From NCBI RefSeq assembly GCF_004353525.1, contig NZ_CP085524.1, forward strand, positions 2,266,142 through 2,330,141: 64,000 nucleotides of DNA, written 5' to 3'. The DNA comes from Zhaonella formicivorans (GTDB lineage: Bacteria > Bacillota > DUOV01 > Zhaonellaceae). A program made the position numbers and the translations under genes. Below are positions 14,513 through 64,000 of the stretch, piece after piece (position 1 is the first letter of the stretch; each line of letters opens with the position of its first letter). The notes under the pieces are model-generated. The model was given only the letters and a program-made list of their open reading frames with translations. It did not search any database and had not been told where the DNA came from.

Positions 14513-15055
14513 CTATGCGTTAGAAGCCTTCATCTTCTTCTTTATGGCAAATATTTCTCTTTCGTTCTGCTTTTCTTTATCTATTAAGTAATCAAGGTCT
14601 AAAGATATTTTATCGAGCATTTCAGTATGTGCAAATACAGTCCTGGCAATCGTTTCTGTTTGATTATTAAGATCTTGAAATTTTTGATTAGCCTCTTTTC
14701 TAAATTCAGCCAGGCCTTCTTCCAGATTAGCTTGTCTTGCCTCCAGTTTTCCAAAGCCTTCTTCTAGTTTAGCTTGTCTTGCTTCCAGTTTTCCAAAGCC
14801 TTCTTCTAGTTTAGCTTGTCTTGCTTCCAGTTTTCCAAAGCCTTCTTCTAGTTTAGCTTGTCTTGCCTCCAGTTTTCCAAAGCCTTCTTCTAGTTTAGCT
14901 TGTCTTGCTTCCAGTTTTCCAAAGCCTTCTTCTAGTTTAGCTTGTCTTGCCTCCAGTTTTCCAAAGCCTTCTTTTAGTTCTTGTTGCCCTTGGTCTAAGG
15001 AATTTAATTTTTGAAGTATTTGTTTTAAAATATCCTCCATTTCCTCCACCCCCAC
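14513..15055 (-). CDS. Coiled-coil protein with six 14-residue repeats
   Basis: 180 residues. The centre has six near-identical 14-residue repeats (EEGFGKLEARQAKL), each exactly two heptads, so a long regular coiled coil is expected. The C-terminus (about 110-180) is also charged and helical. Start is uncertain: the GTG at 15055 or the ATG five codons later, preceded by GGGGGTGGAGG. An IS lies directly upstream (15065-16907) and has cut the gene off from a good promoter now at 16913-16941. Function not recognised; it resembles helical proteins often found singly in Peptococcaceae accessory regions. Confidence 0.6.
   Translation of the reverse strand: MGVEEMEDILKQILQKLNSLDQGQQELKEGFGKLEARQAKLEEGFGKLEARQAKLEEGFGKLEARQAKLEEGFGKLEARQAKLEEGFGKLEARQAKLEEGFGKLEARQANLEEGLAEFRKEANQKFQDLNNQTETIARTVFAHTEMLDKISLDLDYLIDKEKQNEREIFAIKKKMKASNA
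14727..14980. repeat. Six tandem copies of a 42-bp unit inside the coiled-coil gene
   Basis: The unit contains GCTTGTCTTGCCTCCAG and TTTTCCAAAGCCTTC; copies differ mainly by C/T at a synonymous site. High identity between units indicates recent expansion or gene conversion, so repeat number may vary between strains. Confidence 0.85.
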
Positions 15056-27450: not shown

Positions 27451-27533
27451 AATGTAATACGCACCCCGCTTTTGCTTTCTTGCACTTTTTCGGAAAAAAT
27501 TTTTAAAACTTTTTCCGAAAACATCTCGGGTCC

Positions 27534-27871
27534 GTTGTCAGTTGTCAGTTGATAGTTGTTAGTTCTTAGTTGCAAGTATTCTTGTGGGGTCAATTTTCTA
27601 GAGATATGCAGCCATCAGCTATCAGCAAGTAGCCTACAGCTATCAGCTATCAGACGGTAGCTTTAAACCGGACAGCGGTATGGGGACACCTCTCATGCAT
27701 GTAGTATGAACGATGAGGAATGTCCCCAATTATACACTAGAGGAACGGGGACACACCCCGGCTAAGGAACGGGGACACACCCCTATGCAAGATTTATACT
27801 TGTTCGGGGAATGTCCCCGATTTAACACTTGTTCGGGGAATGTCCCCGATTAATTCTAGGAATGTCCCCGA
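27534..27871. repeat. Intergenic repeats: heptad arrays and CGGGGAATGTCCCCG palindromes
   Basis: T-form heptads at 27534-27575 and C-form at 27609-27654. From 27690 a second family appears: GGAACGGGGACACACCCC twice (27743, 27763) and TTCGGGGAATGTCCCCGATT twice in full (27804, 27833) plus a half copy that touches the stop of the LCP gene. No gene in 27451-27871. Confidence 0.8.
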
Positions 27872-30910: not shown

Positions 30911-31867
30911 TTACCGGGTTATTTCGTAGATGGTGTTTTGCAAGGGGTAGGTCAGGAGTTCGTAGTGTTTTTGGCCGCCGATGAGCTTTGTACGGCCAGG
31001 GAGGATGACTTTGGTGATTTTAGTGGTGTCAACTCCCCGGGCAATTTTGTAATGCAGCATGAGGTTTTTAGGGTTGATTTTAAAATCGGTGCTGACATAT
31101 TTTTTGGCGCTAAAAATAAGCCTGGGCAGGTCAATAAAAAACGTCCCGGGTTTGGTGAATTCCCGCATCAGGGCGCCCAAGATCTCTTGATCTTTGGGCC
31201 CTACTTTCATGGTAAAAAGGTCGGCTAAGTTCACCTTTTCCCCGTCGATGTAGATGGGGTCAATGAATTTTTCTATTTCGTCGAAGACGGCTCTCTGGAT
31301 CAGGATGTGGTAGGCAATGTGCACCTCCATCTCCTTTTCCAGCACCTTTTTTACCCCGCTCACCCCTTCCCGCCGGTATAATTGGGCAAAAGTGTAGCTT
31401 TCCCCAGGTACCAGGGAGAAAGTGGGGGTAAAAACAGCTCCCGACTGCATTTTATCCCGGTAGTTAATGCTGTACAGGGAACACATCAGGAGCTTGTCAC
31501 CGTCCACCCCCAAAAACAGCACATTGAGGTTATTGCTCTGTGTGTTGAGGTGTTTGTTTTCCGGTTCCGGTGTTAACTCCGCCTTGGGTCTGCCCGGTAG
31601 CGCTGTAAAGGAGGGGCTTGCCATTTGGTAAACCGGACCAGGGTCCCTATCCAGGGGAAGGTATTCCGGGGAAAGTTCGTAGGCATTTTCTTTTTGCCTG
31701 AATTCCCCAGCGTGGGAAAATGTAATCTGAGGGGAAACAGCAGGTTTGCTTTCCGGCTGCCTGAATTTAAGAAACAGCACTTGCGCGGCGATAAAAAGAA
31801 AAGCCACTAACACCCCGACGATAACGGGGGCAAGCAGCCGGTTTAGCTTACGGGACTTCTTCAGCAT
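30911..31867 (-). CDS. Divergent LCP-like membrane protein
   Basis: 318 residues with one membrane helix (about 12-32). NLNVLFLGVDGDKLLMCSLY (about 112-131) aligns with the LCP start (NVLLLGVDxR...SDT), but the Arg and SDT residues are missing. The rest keeps the LCP-like order (AYHILIQRAVFDEIEKFIDP; IYIDGEKVNLADLF). It probably cannot perform the ligase reaction and may be a regulatory or structural paralogue of the LCP protein at 27.9 kb. Monocistronic by position. Confidence 0.55.
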   Translation of the reverse strand: MLKKSRKLNRLLAPVIVGVLVAFLFIAAQVLFLKFRQPESKPAVSPQITFSHAGEFRQKENAYELSPEYLPLDRDPGPVYQMASPSFTALPGRPKAELTPEPENKHLNTQSNNLNVLFLGVDGDKLLMCSLYSINYRDKMQSGAVFTPTFSLVPGESYTFAQLYRREGVSGVKKVLEKEMEVHIAYHILIQRAVFDEIEKFIDPIYIDGEKVNLADLFTMKVGPKDQEILGALMREFTKPGTFFIDLPRLIFSAKKYVSTDFKINPKNLMLHYKIARGVDTTKITKVILPGRTKLIGGQKHYELLTYPLQNTIYEITR

Positions 31868-33549: not shown

Positions 33550-33683
33550 ACTCGGGCCTCCCCTTTTTGTATTCTGTTTATTTATATGAGGGGAAGCGTG
33601 CAAGTAGAACAGGAAGTGAGCTTTCAGCTATCAGCTGTCAGCCTTCAGCCCATTATGCTATAAAGTAGTGCATTAGGTCAGCT
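33435..33683. repeat. 249-bp direct repeat, copy 1 (5' part and leader of spoIIID)
   Basis: Nearly identical to 35468-35716 (offset 2033), differing by about two bases around 33650. It includes the first 38 codons of spoIIID, its ribosome site, the upstream region and a heptad array (33620-33650). Confidence 0.9.
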
Positions 33684-35582: not shown

Positions 35583-35716
35583 ACTCGGGCCTCCCCTTTT
35601 TGTATTCTGTTTATTTATATGAGGGGAAGCGTGCAAGTAGAACAGGAAGTGAGCTTTCAGCTATCAGCTGTCAGCCTTCAGCCAATTACGCTATAAAGTA
35701 GTGCATTAGGTCAGCT
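35468..35716. repeat. 249-bp direct repeat, copy 2
   Basis: Partner of 33435-33683. It abuts the 3' end of the M23 peptidase gene. Confidence 0.9.
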
Positions 35717-53674: not shown

Positions 53675-53693
53675 TATAGTCACGCCTTTCTGG

Positions 53694-53811
53694 TCAGCCG
53701 TCAGCTTTCAGCCGTCAGCCTTCAACTCTCATCCACCGGCCAACAACTGATAGCTGATAGCTGTTGGCTGATAGCTGATAGCTGTTGGCTGATAGCTGCT
53801 AGCTGCTAGCT
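53694..53811. repeat. Heptad arrays, both orientations
   Basis: Forward units 53694-53728, reverse units 53747-53811 (about nine, with several AGCTGCT variants). The last run touches the MazG-like stop. Confidence 0.85.
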
Positions 53812-54120
53812 GCTTTTGAGGTAGCCCTTTTTCATCAGCTTAGATATATGTTCTTCCAAAGCCTGGGAAAGATCGACATTGTAGTGTTCTTCCAGTACGA
53901 ACATCATGGATACAGCAGTTTGGGCCACGTCCAGGAGCTCCCGGGTAATCATTTTCATTACCTCCTGCTCTTCCATGCTTATTTTTTCTCCGTTTAGCCC
54001 CCTGAACTTACCTATGGCTTGGGCCAACTCCCCCGTCTCCTCCATCAGTTTTAAGGCTGTGGATTCCATGGTGGGGGAGAGGTTGTCCAACCGTGGCAGG
54101 GCGATTATCTTCTTTTGCAT
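53806..54120 (-). CDS. MazG-like nucleotide pyrophosphohydrolase
   Basis: 104 residues from ATG 54120 (AAGGAG eight bases upstream). ALKLMEETGELAQAIGKFRG and ITRELLDVAQTAVSMM hold the EExxE..ExxD metal motif. House-cleaning of non-canonical nucleotides is the usual role. Confidence 0.8.
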   Translation of the reverse strand: MQKKIIALPRLDNLSPTMESTALKLMEETGELAQAIGKFRGLNGEKISMEEQEVMKMITRELLDVAQTAVSMMFVLEEHYNVDLSQALEEHISKLMKKGYLKSS

Positions 54121-54138: not shown

Positions 54139-54362
54139 GGTAGCCGTCAGCTGTCAGCCAGCAGCCTTCAAGCTTTCAGCCATCAGCTTTCAGTCGTCAG
54201 CCTTCAGCTCTCAGCCACCGGCCAACAACCTCTTATGTCTTATTGATCAGAGAGTAATAAAAAGCAAATACTGTTTAATTTTATCTAAAAAAACTTATAA
54301 CTACAGCAAGAAGCTAACAACTGATGGCTGTTGGCTGATAGCTGATAGCTGGGAGCTGATAG
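54139..54362. mobile_element. MITE-like repeat, copy 1
   Basis: Forward heptads (54139-54216), an AT-rich centre with ACCTCTTATGTCTTATT and AAAGCAAATACTGTTTAATT, and reverse heptads (54318-54362). The centre is nearly identical to 55949-56047. Confidence 0.75.
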
Positions 54363-54372
54363 CCTCTGTATT

Positions 54373-62290: not shown

Positions 62291-63247
62291 TCAACTTAAC
62301 AACCGTCCAATAATTACCCGCTCCAAATTGGCATAATCGTCCAGAATCTCTATTTCTGAGAATCCCTGGCTTGCCAGAATTTTTTTAACATCCGCCCCTT
62401 GATCGCTCCCTATTTCCAGCGCCAGCCAACCCCCCCGGTCCAGCACATTTTTGCTTTCCCGGGCCAGGCGGCGGTAAAAGGCAAGCCCGTCCTCACCGCC
62501 GGCCAGAGCCGTAACAGGTTCGAAAGTGACTTCGGGCTGAAGGTGGGGTACGTTACCAGCCGGAATGTAGGGGGGATTGGAGACAACGATATCAAAACCT
62601 CCGGCTTCGTGATAGTTGTTGGTTGTTAGTTGCTGGCTGTTGTTATAGTTGTTAGTTGTTGGTTGTTGGTTGTTAGTTGTACATGCTGTTCTTTGGGGCA
62701 AAAAAGGCTGTAGTAAATCACCGTGGACAAATGTTATCTCAACACTATGTTTTTCAGCATTTCTTTTGGCCACTTTTAAGGCTTTCTCGGAAATGTCCAC
62801 GGCAAAGACTTGTGCTTCCGGCCAAAATTTTTTGAGACAAATGGCGATAATGCCGCTGCCTGTGCCTACATCAACTATTTTGGCTGCAAGGGGAACACGA
62901 CGTTTTAGGCCCAGTACCGCCTGCACCAGTATTTCGGTGTCATCCCTGGGAATAAGGACATGCTCATTAACTGCAAAATCCAAGGACATGAATTCCCGGC
63001 ACCCGGTCAGGTACTGCAAAGGGTAATGTTCAGCTCGTTTTTTTACCATTTCCCTGAAGCGTCTTTGTTCAGCCTCGCCTATTGTCTCGGGCAGATGCCC
63101 CAAAAGTTTGGCCCTGGTCCACCCTAAAGCATGGGCTAATAATACCTCCGCTTCCAGCCTGGCATTTAAAATACCGCTCCGATGCAAAAAAGGAACCGCC
63201 CAGGCCAGTTCCTTCTTGGCTGTCGGCGGTCCACTGCTCTTCAACAC
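62291..63247 (-). CDS. prmC: Peptide chain release factor N5-glutamine methyltransferase, with Asn/Gln/Thr-rich insert
   Basis: 318 residues from GTG 63247, preceded by AAGGTGGA in prfA. The N-terminal helical domain is followed by the SAM-binding domain (VDVGTGSGIIAICLKKFWPE) and the catalytic NPPYIP motif. Between THEVHGDLLQ-type strand (VEITFVHGDLLQPFLPQRTA) and FDIVVSNPPYIP lie about 28 unusual residues (TNNQQPTTNNYNNSQQLTTN...). That stretch is a T-form heptad array (unit GTTGGTT/GTTAGTT) read in frame. It methylates the GGQ glutamine of RF1, encoded directly upstream. Confidence 0.92.
   Translation of the reverse strand: MLKSSGPPTAKKELAWAVPFLHRSGILNARLEAEVLLAHALGWTRAKLLGHLPETIGEAEQRRFREMVKKRAEHYPLQYLTGCREFMSLDFAVNEHVLIPRDDTEILVQAVLGLKRRVPLAAKIVDVGTGSGIIAICLKKFWPEAQVFAVDISEKALKVAKRNAEKHSVEITFVHGDLLQPFLPQRTACTTNNQQPTTNNYNNSQQLTTNNYHEAGGFDIVVSNPPYIPAGNVPHLQPEVTFEPVTALAGGEDGLAFYRRLARESKNVLDRGGWLALEIGSDQGADVKKILASQGFSEIEILDDYANLERVIIGRLLS
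62613..62685. repeat. Heptad-type array inside prmC
   Basis: Units GTTGTTG, GTTGTTA, GTTGCTG, TTGTTAT, GTTGTTA, GTTGGTT follow one another; three 7-bp units equal seven codons, so the frame is kept. Confidence 0.8.
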
Positions 63248-64000
63248 TTATTCCACCTTCTTTAGCTTCTCGGCTTGGTCAGTGGTAATCAAGGCATCAA
63301 TAATCTCGTCTAATTCCCCGTCAAGAATAAGGTCAAGCTTATGCAATGTGAGGCCGATACGGTGGTCGGTTACCCTGCTTTGAGGAAAATTATAAGTCCG
63401 GATCCTTTCGCTGCGGTCACCGGTCCCCACCTGGCTTTTCCTGGCGCTGGCCAGTTCGCCTTGCTGCTCTTCCTGGGCTTTTTCCAAAAGACGCGCCCGC
63501 AACACTTTCATAGCTTTATCTTTATTCTTGTGCTGGGACTTTTCGTCCTGGCAGGATACAACTATGCCCGTAGGAAGGTGGGTAATCCGCACCGCCGACT
63601 GGGTGGTATTGACCGACTGGCCGCCGGGCCCGCTGGAACAAAAAATGTCTATCCTGATATCGTTGGGGTTAATTTGCACATCCACCTCTTCCGCCTCAGG
63701 CAAAACCGCCACGGTTACGGTAGAAGTATGAATTCTGCCGCCCGACTCGGTGGTAGGAATGCGCTGTACTCGGTGCACGCCGCTTTCAAACTTCAGGCGG
63801 CTGTACGCACCCTGCCCTTCAATGGCGAAAATAATCTCCTTATAGCCGCCGATGTCGGTGGGATGGTCGCTTAAAATCTCCAAGCGCCATCCCTGGCGCT
63901 CCGCATAGCGGGAATACATTCTGAACAAGTCCCCGGCAAACAGGGCTGCTTCATCGCCCCCGGCACCGCCCCGGATCTCCATAATGACGTTCTTTTCGTC
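63248..64000 (-). CDS. prfA: Peptide chain release factor 1 (5' end outside window)
   Basis: At least 250 residues; the frame runs past the right edge ([20 protein letters not shown]). The GGQ motif is in [20 protein letters not shown]. It ends translation at UAA and UAG. The stop is directly followed by the prmC start. Confidence 0.97.

Follow-up and report, generated by a model that had tools for sequence, protein, structure and literature searches.

Among the long simple sequence repeats of bacteria, heptanucleotide repeats form an established class; they are mostly intergenic, with some genic examples (PMC4679880, PMC4692102, PMC2700814). For arrays of the GGGAATC/GGGGAYT type, the intergenic shares give an intragenic fraction of 7–11% in Xanthomonas and about 32% in Nostoc (PMC4692102), while direct repeats of TAACTGA have been described from Beggiatoaceae, cyanobacteria, and Bacteroidetes (PMC4679880). 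In neuO of E. coli K1, a tandem run of AAGACTC that can reach dozens of copies lies within the coding sequence, near its 5′ end, with proven slippage (PMC13001214). Repeats of a different build, the Rickettsia palindromic elements (RPEs), occur in frame in conserved genes, and a guanylate kinase that carries one retains its activity (PMC2229807).

The locus described here lies in a 64,000-nucleotide stretch of Zhaonella formicivorans DNA (the window, by which the whole stretch analysed is meant), where a heptad array is translated inside prmC. Enzymes of the PrmC/HemK type methylate the GGQ glutamine of RF1 and RF2. PrmC contributes to growth in model bacteria, as seen in a described fitness landscape, where its knock-down gave a defect (PMC8073009). 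The open reading frame (ORF) was identified as PrmC by a TIGR03534 score of 284.7 bits, above the curated cut-off of 199.1, and this was the only match in the 3.31-Mb genome (G000), with no other copy found. Its hexamer coding score is 116, and the halves on either side of the array are both conserved. The gene, its neighbor, and its catalytic motif are as follows.

62291..63247, minus strand: prmC, release factor N5-glutamine methyltransferase, 318 aa, GTG start, intact (TIGR03534, 5.9e-85).
63248..64000, minus strand: prfA (release factor 1), the partner gene upstream of prmC, continuing past the window edge (NF001859, 453 bits; TIGR00019, 449 bits).
62567..62578, minus strand: catalytic NPPY motif, intact, six residues past the end of the linker, with the strand 218–223 intervening (translation; DSSP of the AlphaFold2 model).

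The motif is read in the translation as N224-P225-P226-Y227, and N224, P226, and Y227 are invariant across 47 sequences and kept here.

An earlier note on this DNA had proposed, from the letters and a list of ORFs, that a heptad array is translated inside prmC, and this is borne out by a lag-7 scan and by Tandem Repeats Finder (TRF), which reported 10 copies of a 7-mer at 62613–62680 and 1.9 copies of a 33-mer at 62612–62674. The coordinates given there, 62613–62685, were right to within a few bases of the span found by codon dissection. The array and the residues around it can be laid out thus.

62612..62680, minus strand: heptad-encoded insert T190–Y212, TTNNQQPTTNNYNNSQQLTTNNY (TRF, lag-7 scan, codon dissection).
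62645..62677, minus strand: 33-nt unit 1, TNNQQPTTNNY, residues 191–201 (33-nt self-alignment, 26 of 33 identical; TRF period 33).
62612..62644, minus strand: 33-nt unit 2, NNSQQLTTNNY, residues 202–212 (33-nt self-alignment; TRF period 33).
62681..62698, minus strand: non-heptad linker residues P184–C189 (PQRTAC), N-terminal to the array, which may hold some of the extra length (relatives' linkers, codon dissection).
62597..62611, minus strand: non-heptad linker residues H213–G217 (HEAGG), C-terminal to the array (codon dissection).

On the coding strand, 62612–62680 runs ACA ACT AAC AAC CAA CAA CCA ACA ACT AAC AAC TAT AAC AAC AGC CAG CAA CTA ACA ACC AAC AAC TAT and encodes TTNNQQPTTNNYNNSQQLTTNNY; at the peptide level, the stretch CTTNNQQPTTNNYNNSQQLTTNNYHEAGGFDIVVSNPPY would be diagnostic of its translation. 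The array units are TAGTTGT, TGGTTGT, TAGTTGC, and TGGCTGT, that is, a degenerate TRGYTGY, and the two translated 33-nt units have the same residue at 8 of 11 positions. The reading frame was formerly ascribed to three units making 21 bp, which is wrong; it is held by the two 33-nt units, each consisting of four heptads plus 5 nt and thus of 11 codons. Two features keep the gene open: the unit length of 33 is divisible by three, and wherever a heptad contains TAA, that triplet is out of frame. Both remaining coding-strand frames, and all three on the opposite strand, have stops within the 95 nt. Across arrays, 31.6% of frames are stop-free on the YRGYY strand versus 9.5% on the complement, which is the one used by prmC, and random ordering of units and frame left the stretch open in 23% of trials. 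The open frame of prmC is therefore lucky but not remarkable.

Comparison with other PrmC proteins places the array at a site of variable length. Relatives in genome contigs were found with an alignment query, a single-protein query having matched none. The linker from the GD motif to FDIVVSNPPY measures 40 residues in the window's PrmC versus 8–39 in 109 others; it spans 8–13 residues in 94 of the 110 proteins, and the 40 residues seen here are the longest. Likewise, the linker preceding FDxIVSNPPY is usually short in 30 PrmC proteins from G000 and its relatives, and in the two other genera of the same family, whose PrmC is about 59% identical overall, the sequence at this point reads PFLKENSKFDI and PFQGSHTFDI; the nearest relatives have linkers of 10–11 residues. 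The other long linkers in the 110-protein set (39, 28, 24, 22, and 21 residues) are unrelated in sequence; the one of 39 residues, LFSPFSDFNTHGNGETRSFPRRCEHGPGPGGGFEEFEGG, lies at the same site in a PrmC of another lineage (L013 of G003). The comparison (8 to 40 residues over 110 proteins) implies that the site is naturally length-variable and that the insert is lineage-specific. Alignment with relatives, which the earlier note had recommended as a check, found the insert absent from distant PrmC proteins, and the conservation named there as refuting was not seen among the 109. Its figure of about 28 residues also agrees with a linker some 29 residues longer than in relatives. Roughly 23 of these 29 extra residues are heptad-encoded and the remainder lies in the flanks PQRTAC and HEAGG, within the natural range; about 17 linker residues have no heptad coding, and a small part of the extra length stays unaccounted for.

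An AlphaFold2 model of PrmC was built from the 47 sequences, with a mean pLDDT of 92.9, core blocks at about 97–99, and blocks over residues 191–210 at 55 and 51. According to DSSP, the insert sits between the strands E172–175 and E218–223 of the model, and Foldseek gave as its best match 2b3t_A, the E. coli PrmC–RF1 complex (TMt 0.93, E 1.1e-27), with a HemK fold. The surface loop predicted earlier is supported by this model, which combines a confident HemK fold (about 98) with a low pLDDT over the insert (about 51–55), and the insert is probably a polar, disordered loop at the surface. The topology further suggests that the loop would stand at the strand end opposite the catalytic NPPY, about six residues off. 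No secondary structure is predicted for the insert's mRNA (MFE 0 kcal/mol). PrmC with its insert is most likely still active.

The array in prmC belongs to a population of repeats that is dispersed through the genome. Period-7 tracts, defined by 28-base windows with at least 75% match, were compared with 30 Markov shuffles and with other lags: the window holds 19 tracts versus none in the 30 shuffled controls, and lags 3–6, 8–13, and 15 gave no tracts in the window, while lag 14 is a harmonic. The units follow YRGYYNN, with the dialects CAGCYNT, TAGTYNT, and TRGTTGT. Three intergenic examples from the window are listed for comparison.

27524..27577, plus strand: intergenic heptad array including the GTTG-type dialect (lag-7 scan).
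53692..53818, strand not assigned: convergent inverted array pair, a GTCAGCC arm followed by a GCTGATA arm, intergenic (lag-7 scan and pair analysis).
54142..54364, strand not assigned: second convergent inverted array pair, a long hairpin of -77.2 kcal/mol, z -5.3 (TRF, folding).

The resemblance to intergenic units pointed out earlier is confined to a minority dialect (42 matches), whereas most other arrays use CAGCYNT or TAGTCNT. The prmC array has exact 20–22-mers in common with arrays between genes, among them those at 1.566 Mb and 2.522 Mb. Where arrays of opposite sense are neighbors within 250 bp, the YRGYY arm comes first and its complement second in all 13 cases in G000, in all 7 in G090 (another family of the same phylum), and in all 3 in G002 (the same family), and such convergent pairs are predicted to form long hairpins. 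Besides the two window pairs listed above, convergent pairs occur at loci L100, L105, L106, L115, L118, L123, L126, L129, and L130. The prmC array is a solo arm without an inverted partner.

Several further observations concern the arrays at large. A dispersed core, TAGTTGCATGTATGGCTTT, is found at 28 places in G000, mostly beside TAGTCCT arms, as at L129:783-801 (+) and L106:6290-6308 (+); its reversed control gave no match, and outside G000 there was a single weak match, in G002, while G001 and G090 gave none. A REP-type Y1 transposase was considered as a driver and rejected, since G000 has one and G001 and G002 have two each, yet G001 is nearly array-free. No Rfam family covered the arrays in the sequences searched. 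One region of G000 (~0.13–1.25 Mb, roughly a third of the chromosome) is nearly devoid of arrays, with only 2 of 40 GTTG-type matches (in a single array at 0.498 Mb) and no array in seven 20-kb samples; the switch in GC skew between 0.85 and 0.99 Mb, interpreted as the terminus, falls within it. In the window, near-identical heptad arrays 2 kb apart (33615–33653 and 35648–35686) suggest array copying or duplication. The CAGCTAT/CAGCTGT dialect has a patchy distribution, with 95 matches in G090 and none in most of 300 genomes of the phylum. Finally, the ORF 14513–15055 on the minus strand contains 6.3 copies of a 42-bp unit, 96% identical (14714–14979), which would amount to a protein repeat of 14 residues should that frame be the one in use.

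A heptad array in the interior of a gene is a rare exception. The survey covered 864 kb (26%) of the genome, about 86% of it coding according to a home-made hexamer gene caller, and roughly half of the stretches were picked in array-rich regions, so that densities are not genome averages. Of the 98 arrays in these 864 kb, one is well inside a gene (prmC), one is mostly within a weak ORF, and 15 overlap the end of a gene; under other thresholds the ratio of genic to other arrays was 1 to 97–123. Looser thresholds yielded few extra genic matches, at the background of other lags or near gene starts. At L046/L047 (C-terminal end), L066/L067, and L128:11808, apparently genic arrays are situated close to gene ends, and these were not scored as internal. 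A prmC-type 20-mer has 42 matches genome-wide within two mismatches, and among the 30 with loci checked, only those in prmC are inside a gene. The earlier statement that the repeat can enter genes and be tolerated thus stands as to occurrence, given prmC and the G002 case described below, but as a rare exception (1 of 98 arrays).

The reading that best accommodates these data, to which a probability of about 0.8 is assigned, is that a heptad arm entered or grew in the tolerant, length-variable linker of prmC and persisted there as a neutral or near-neutral sequence. One arm of the dispersed intergenic repeat would have entered by copying, or grown by slippage and a 33-nt duplication, and would have been retained by virtue of a stop-free frame, two 33-nt units, an unstructured mRNA, and a polar, probably disordered loop away from NPPY. 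The route of entry, the neutrality of the insert, and the retained activity of the enzyme are inferred, while the array, its restriction to this lineage, the frame and unit arithmetic, the intact motifs, the predicted disorder, and the rarity in genes are observed.

As to that route, copying from an intergenic array is favoured, though not proven, because exact 20–22-mers are common to both. A possible though less probable course is growth in place, with a short CAAC-rich seed in the linker expanding through slippage and duplication of 33 nt: the two 33-nt units are identical at 26 of 33 positions, and neither a target-site duplication nor an element end was seen, but arrays between the genes of this genome have the dialect and the exact 20–22-mers, and no similar growth was seen in any other gene interior over the 864 kb. 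The flank of the prmC array, GTACATGCTGTTCTTTGG, resembles the dispersed core, TTGCATGTATGGCTTT, suggestively by eye, and this was rejected as chance (p = 0.53). The lack of flank similarity fits growth in place, and because the link is not significant, copying cannot be separated from it.

It is improbable that the N/Q/T-rich loop has been retained for a role in binding, regulation, or assembly. Such a role could be argued from an N/Q/Y-rich, low-complexity tract that is open in the rarer-open orientation, but the loop is conserved in none of the 109 other PrmC proteins, its composition follows straight from the DNA repeat, and the share of random trials left open implies that its openness needs no special cause. 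More improbable still is a contingency locus, in which gain or loss of heptads would shift the frame and switch PrmC off and on as in neuO. Seven is no multiple of three, and with stops in the other two coding-strand frames a change of one heptad would truncate PrmC before NPPY, for which the heptad phase variation in the coding region of neuO is a solved precedent (PMC13001214). Against this, the prmC units are degenerate, with a longest exact period-7 tract of 20 nt versus 3–53 repeats in neuO, and a conserved housekeeping enzyme without a second genomic copy is an unlikely target. An assembly error or a pseudogene has almost nothing to recommend it, for although repeats are prone to such errors, the genome is a single, 99% complete contig and the gene retains an open frame across the array, conserved halves, its coding score, and a confident fold.

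A second, independent in-frame case gives the preferred reading, an arm accommodated in a tolerant linker, some generality. In G002, the gene at L307:814-1860 (G002:C23) carries two in-frame heptad arrays of the dialect AATTTTG/AGTTAAG, encoding ...DLIQNSEFKIQNYDRSIQNSQKPTLNSKLLTLNSQRLN..., and its product has, by eye from the sequence, an N-terminal membrane anchor, with the array stretch in a linker; searches of Pfam and NCBIfam gave no match for this protein. The ortholog in the window, 30911–31867, is without the heptad stretch. Since these arrays are in frame, in a linker, and in another gene, this kind of event recurs, while in the more distant G090 none of 30 arrays is internal to a gene. 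It is tentatively conceivable, at somewhat less than even odds, that new low-complexity loops arise from heptad arrays again and again, each time independently, in conserved proteins of this Clostridia family, as in prmC and the membrane-anchored protein of G002 with their different dialects. If so, the arrays would be a non-palindromic counterpart of the RPEs and would show where new protein loops can come from. The route from intergenic repeat DNA to protein demands that several things coincide: a frame free of stops, a length that is a multiple of three, a lack of RNA structure, and a tolerant loop. The 97 arrays outside gene interiors versus one inside are a measured contrast, and PrmC is easily assayed; in general interest, the convergent-arm layout of the intergenic arrays may outweigh the prmC case.

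Set beside the described systems, these arrays resemble the heptanucleotide repeats reported by Mrazek in 2007 (as cited in PMC4679880) and those of Xanthomonas and Nostoc (PMC4692102) in their period of seven, many dispersed copies, and overwhelmingly intergenic location. They differ from these in following YRGYYNN, in having several dialects, in being more degenerate, and in being far less often genic (1 of 98). With the heptads of Geobacter metallireducens (GGACCGG and the MTYCTGA class, PMC2700814) they share dispersal between and within genes, some Geobacter classes also being paired on opposite strands, but the units are others and the arrays here are longer and more degenerate. TAACTGA repeats, of which no tandem copy was found in the 864 kb, are likewise heptads whose orientation sets their translatability; a few of them lie in ORFs, mostly at protein ends, whereas the prmC insert is internal in a conserved enzyme. 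Like neuO, prmC has a 7-nt tandem repeat within its coding sequence, but its units are degenerate and internal, with a frame set by 33-nt units. Like the RPEs, the repeat is dispersed, intergenic, and also present in frame in a conserved housekeeping protein where it is apparently tolerated; unlike those stem-loops of 105–146 bp, the prmC insert is a non-palindromic tandem of 69 nt with no predicted structure. The prmC case is thus an addition to the known coding heptads and in-frame repeat inserts rather than a new kind.
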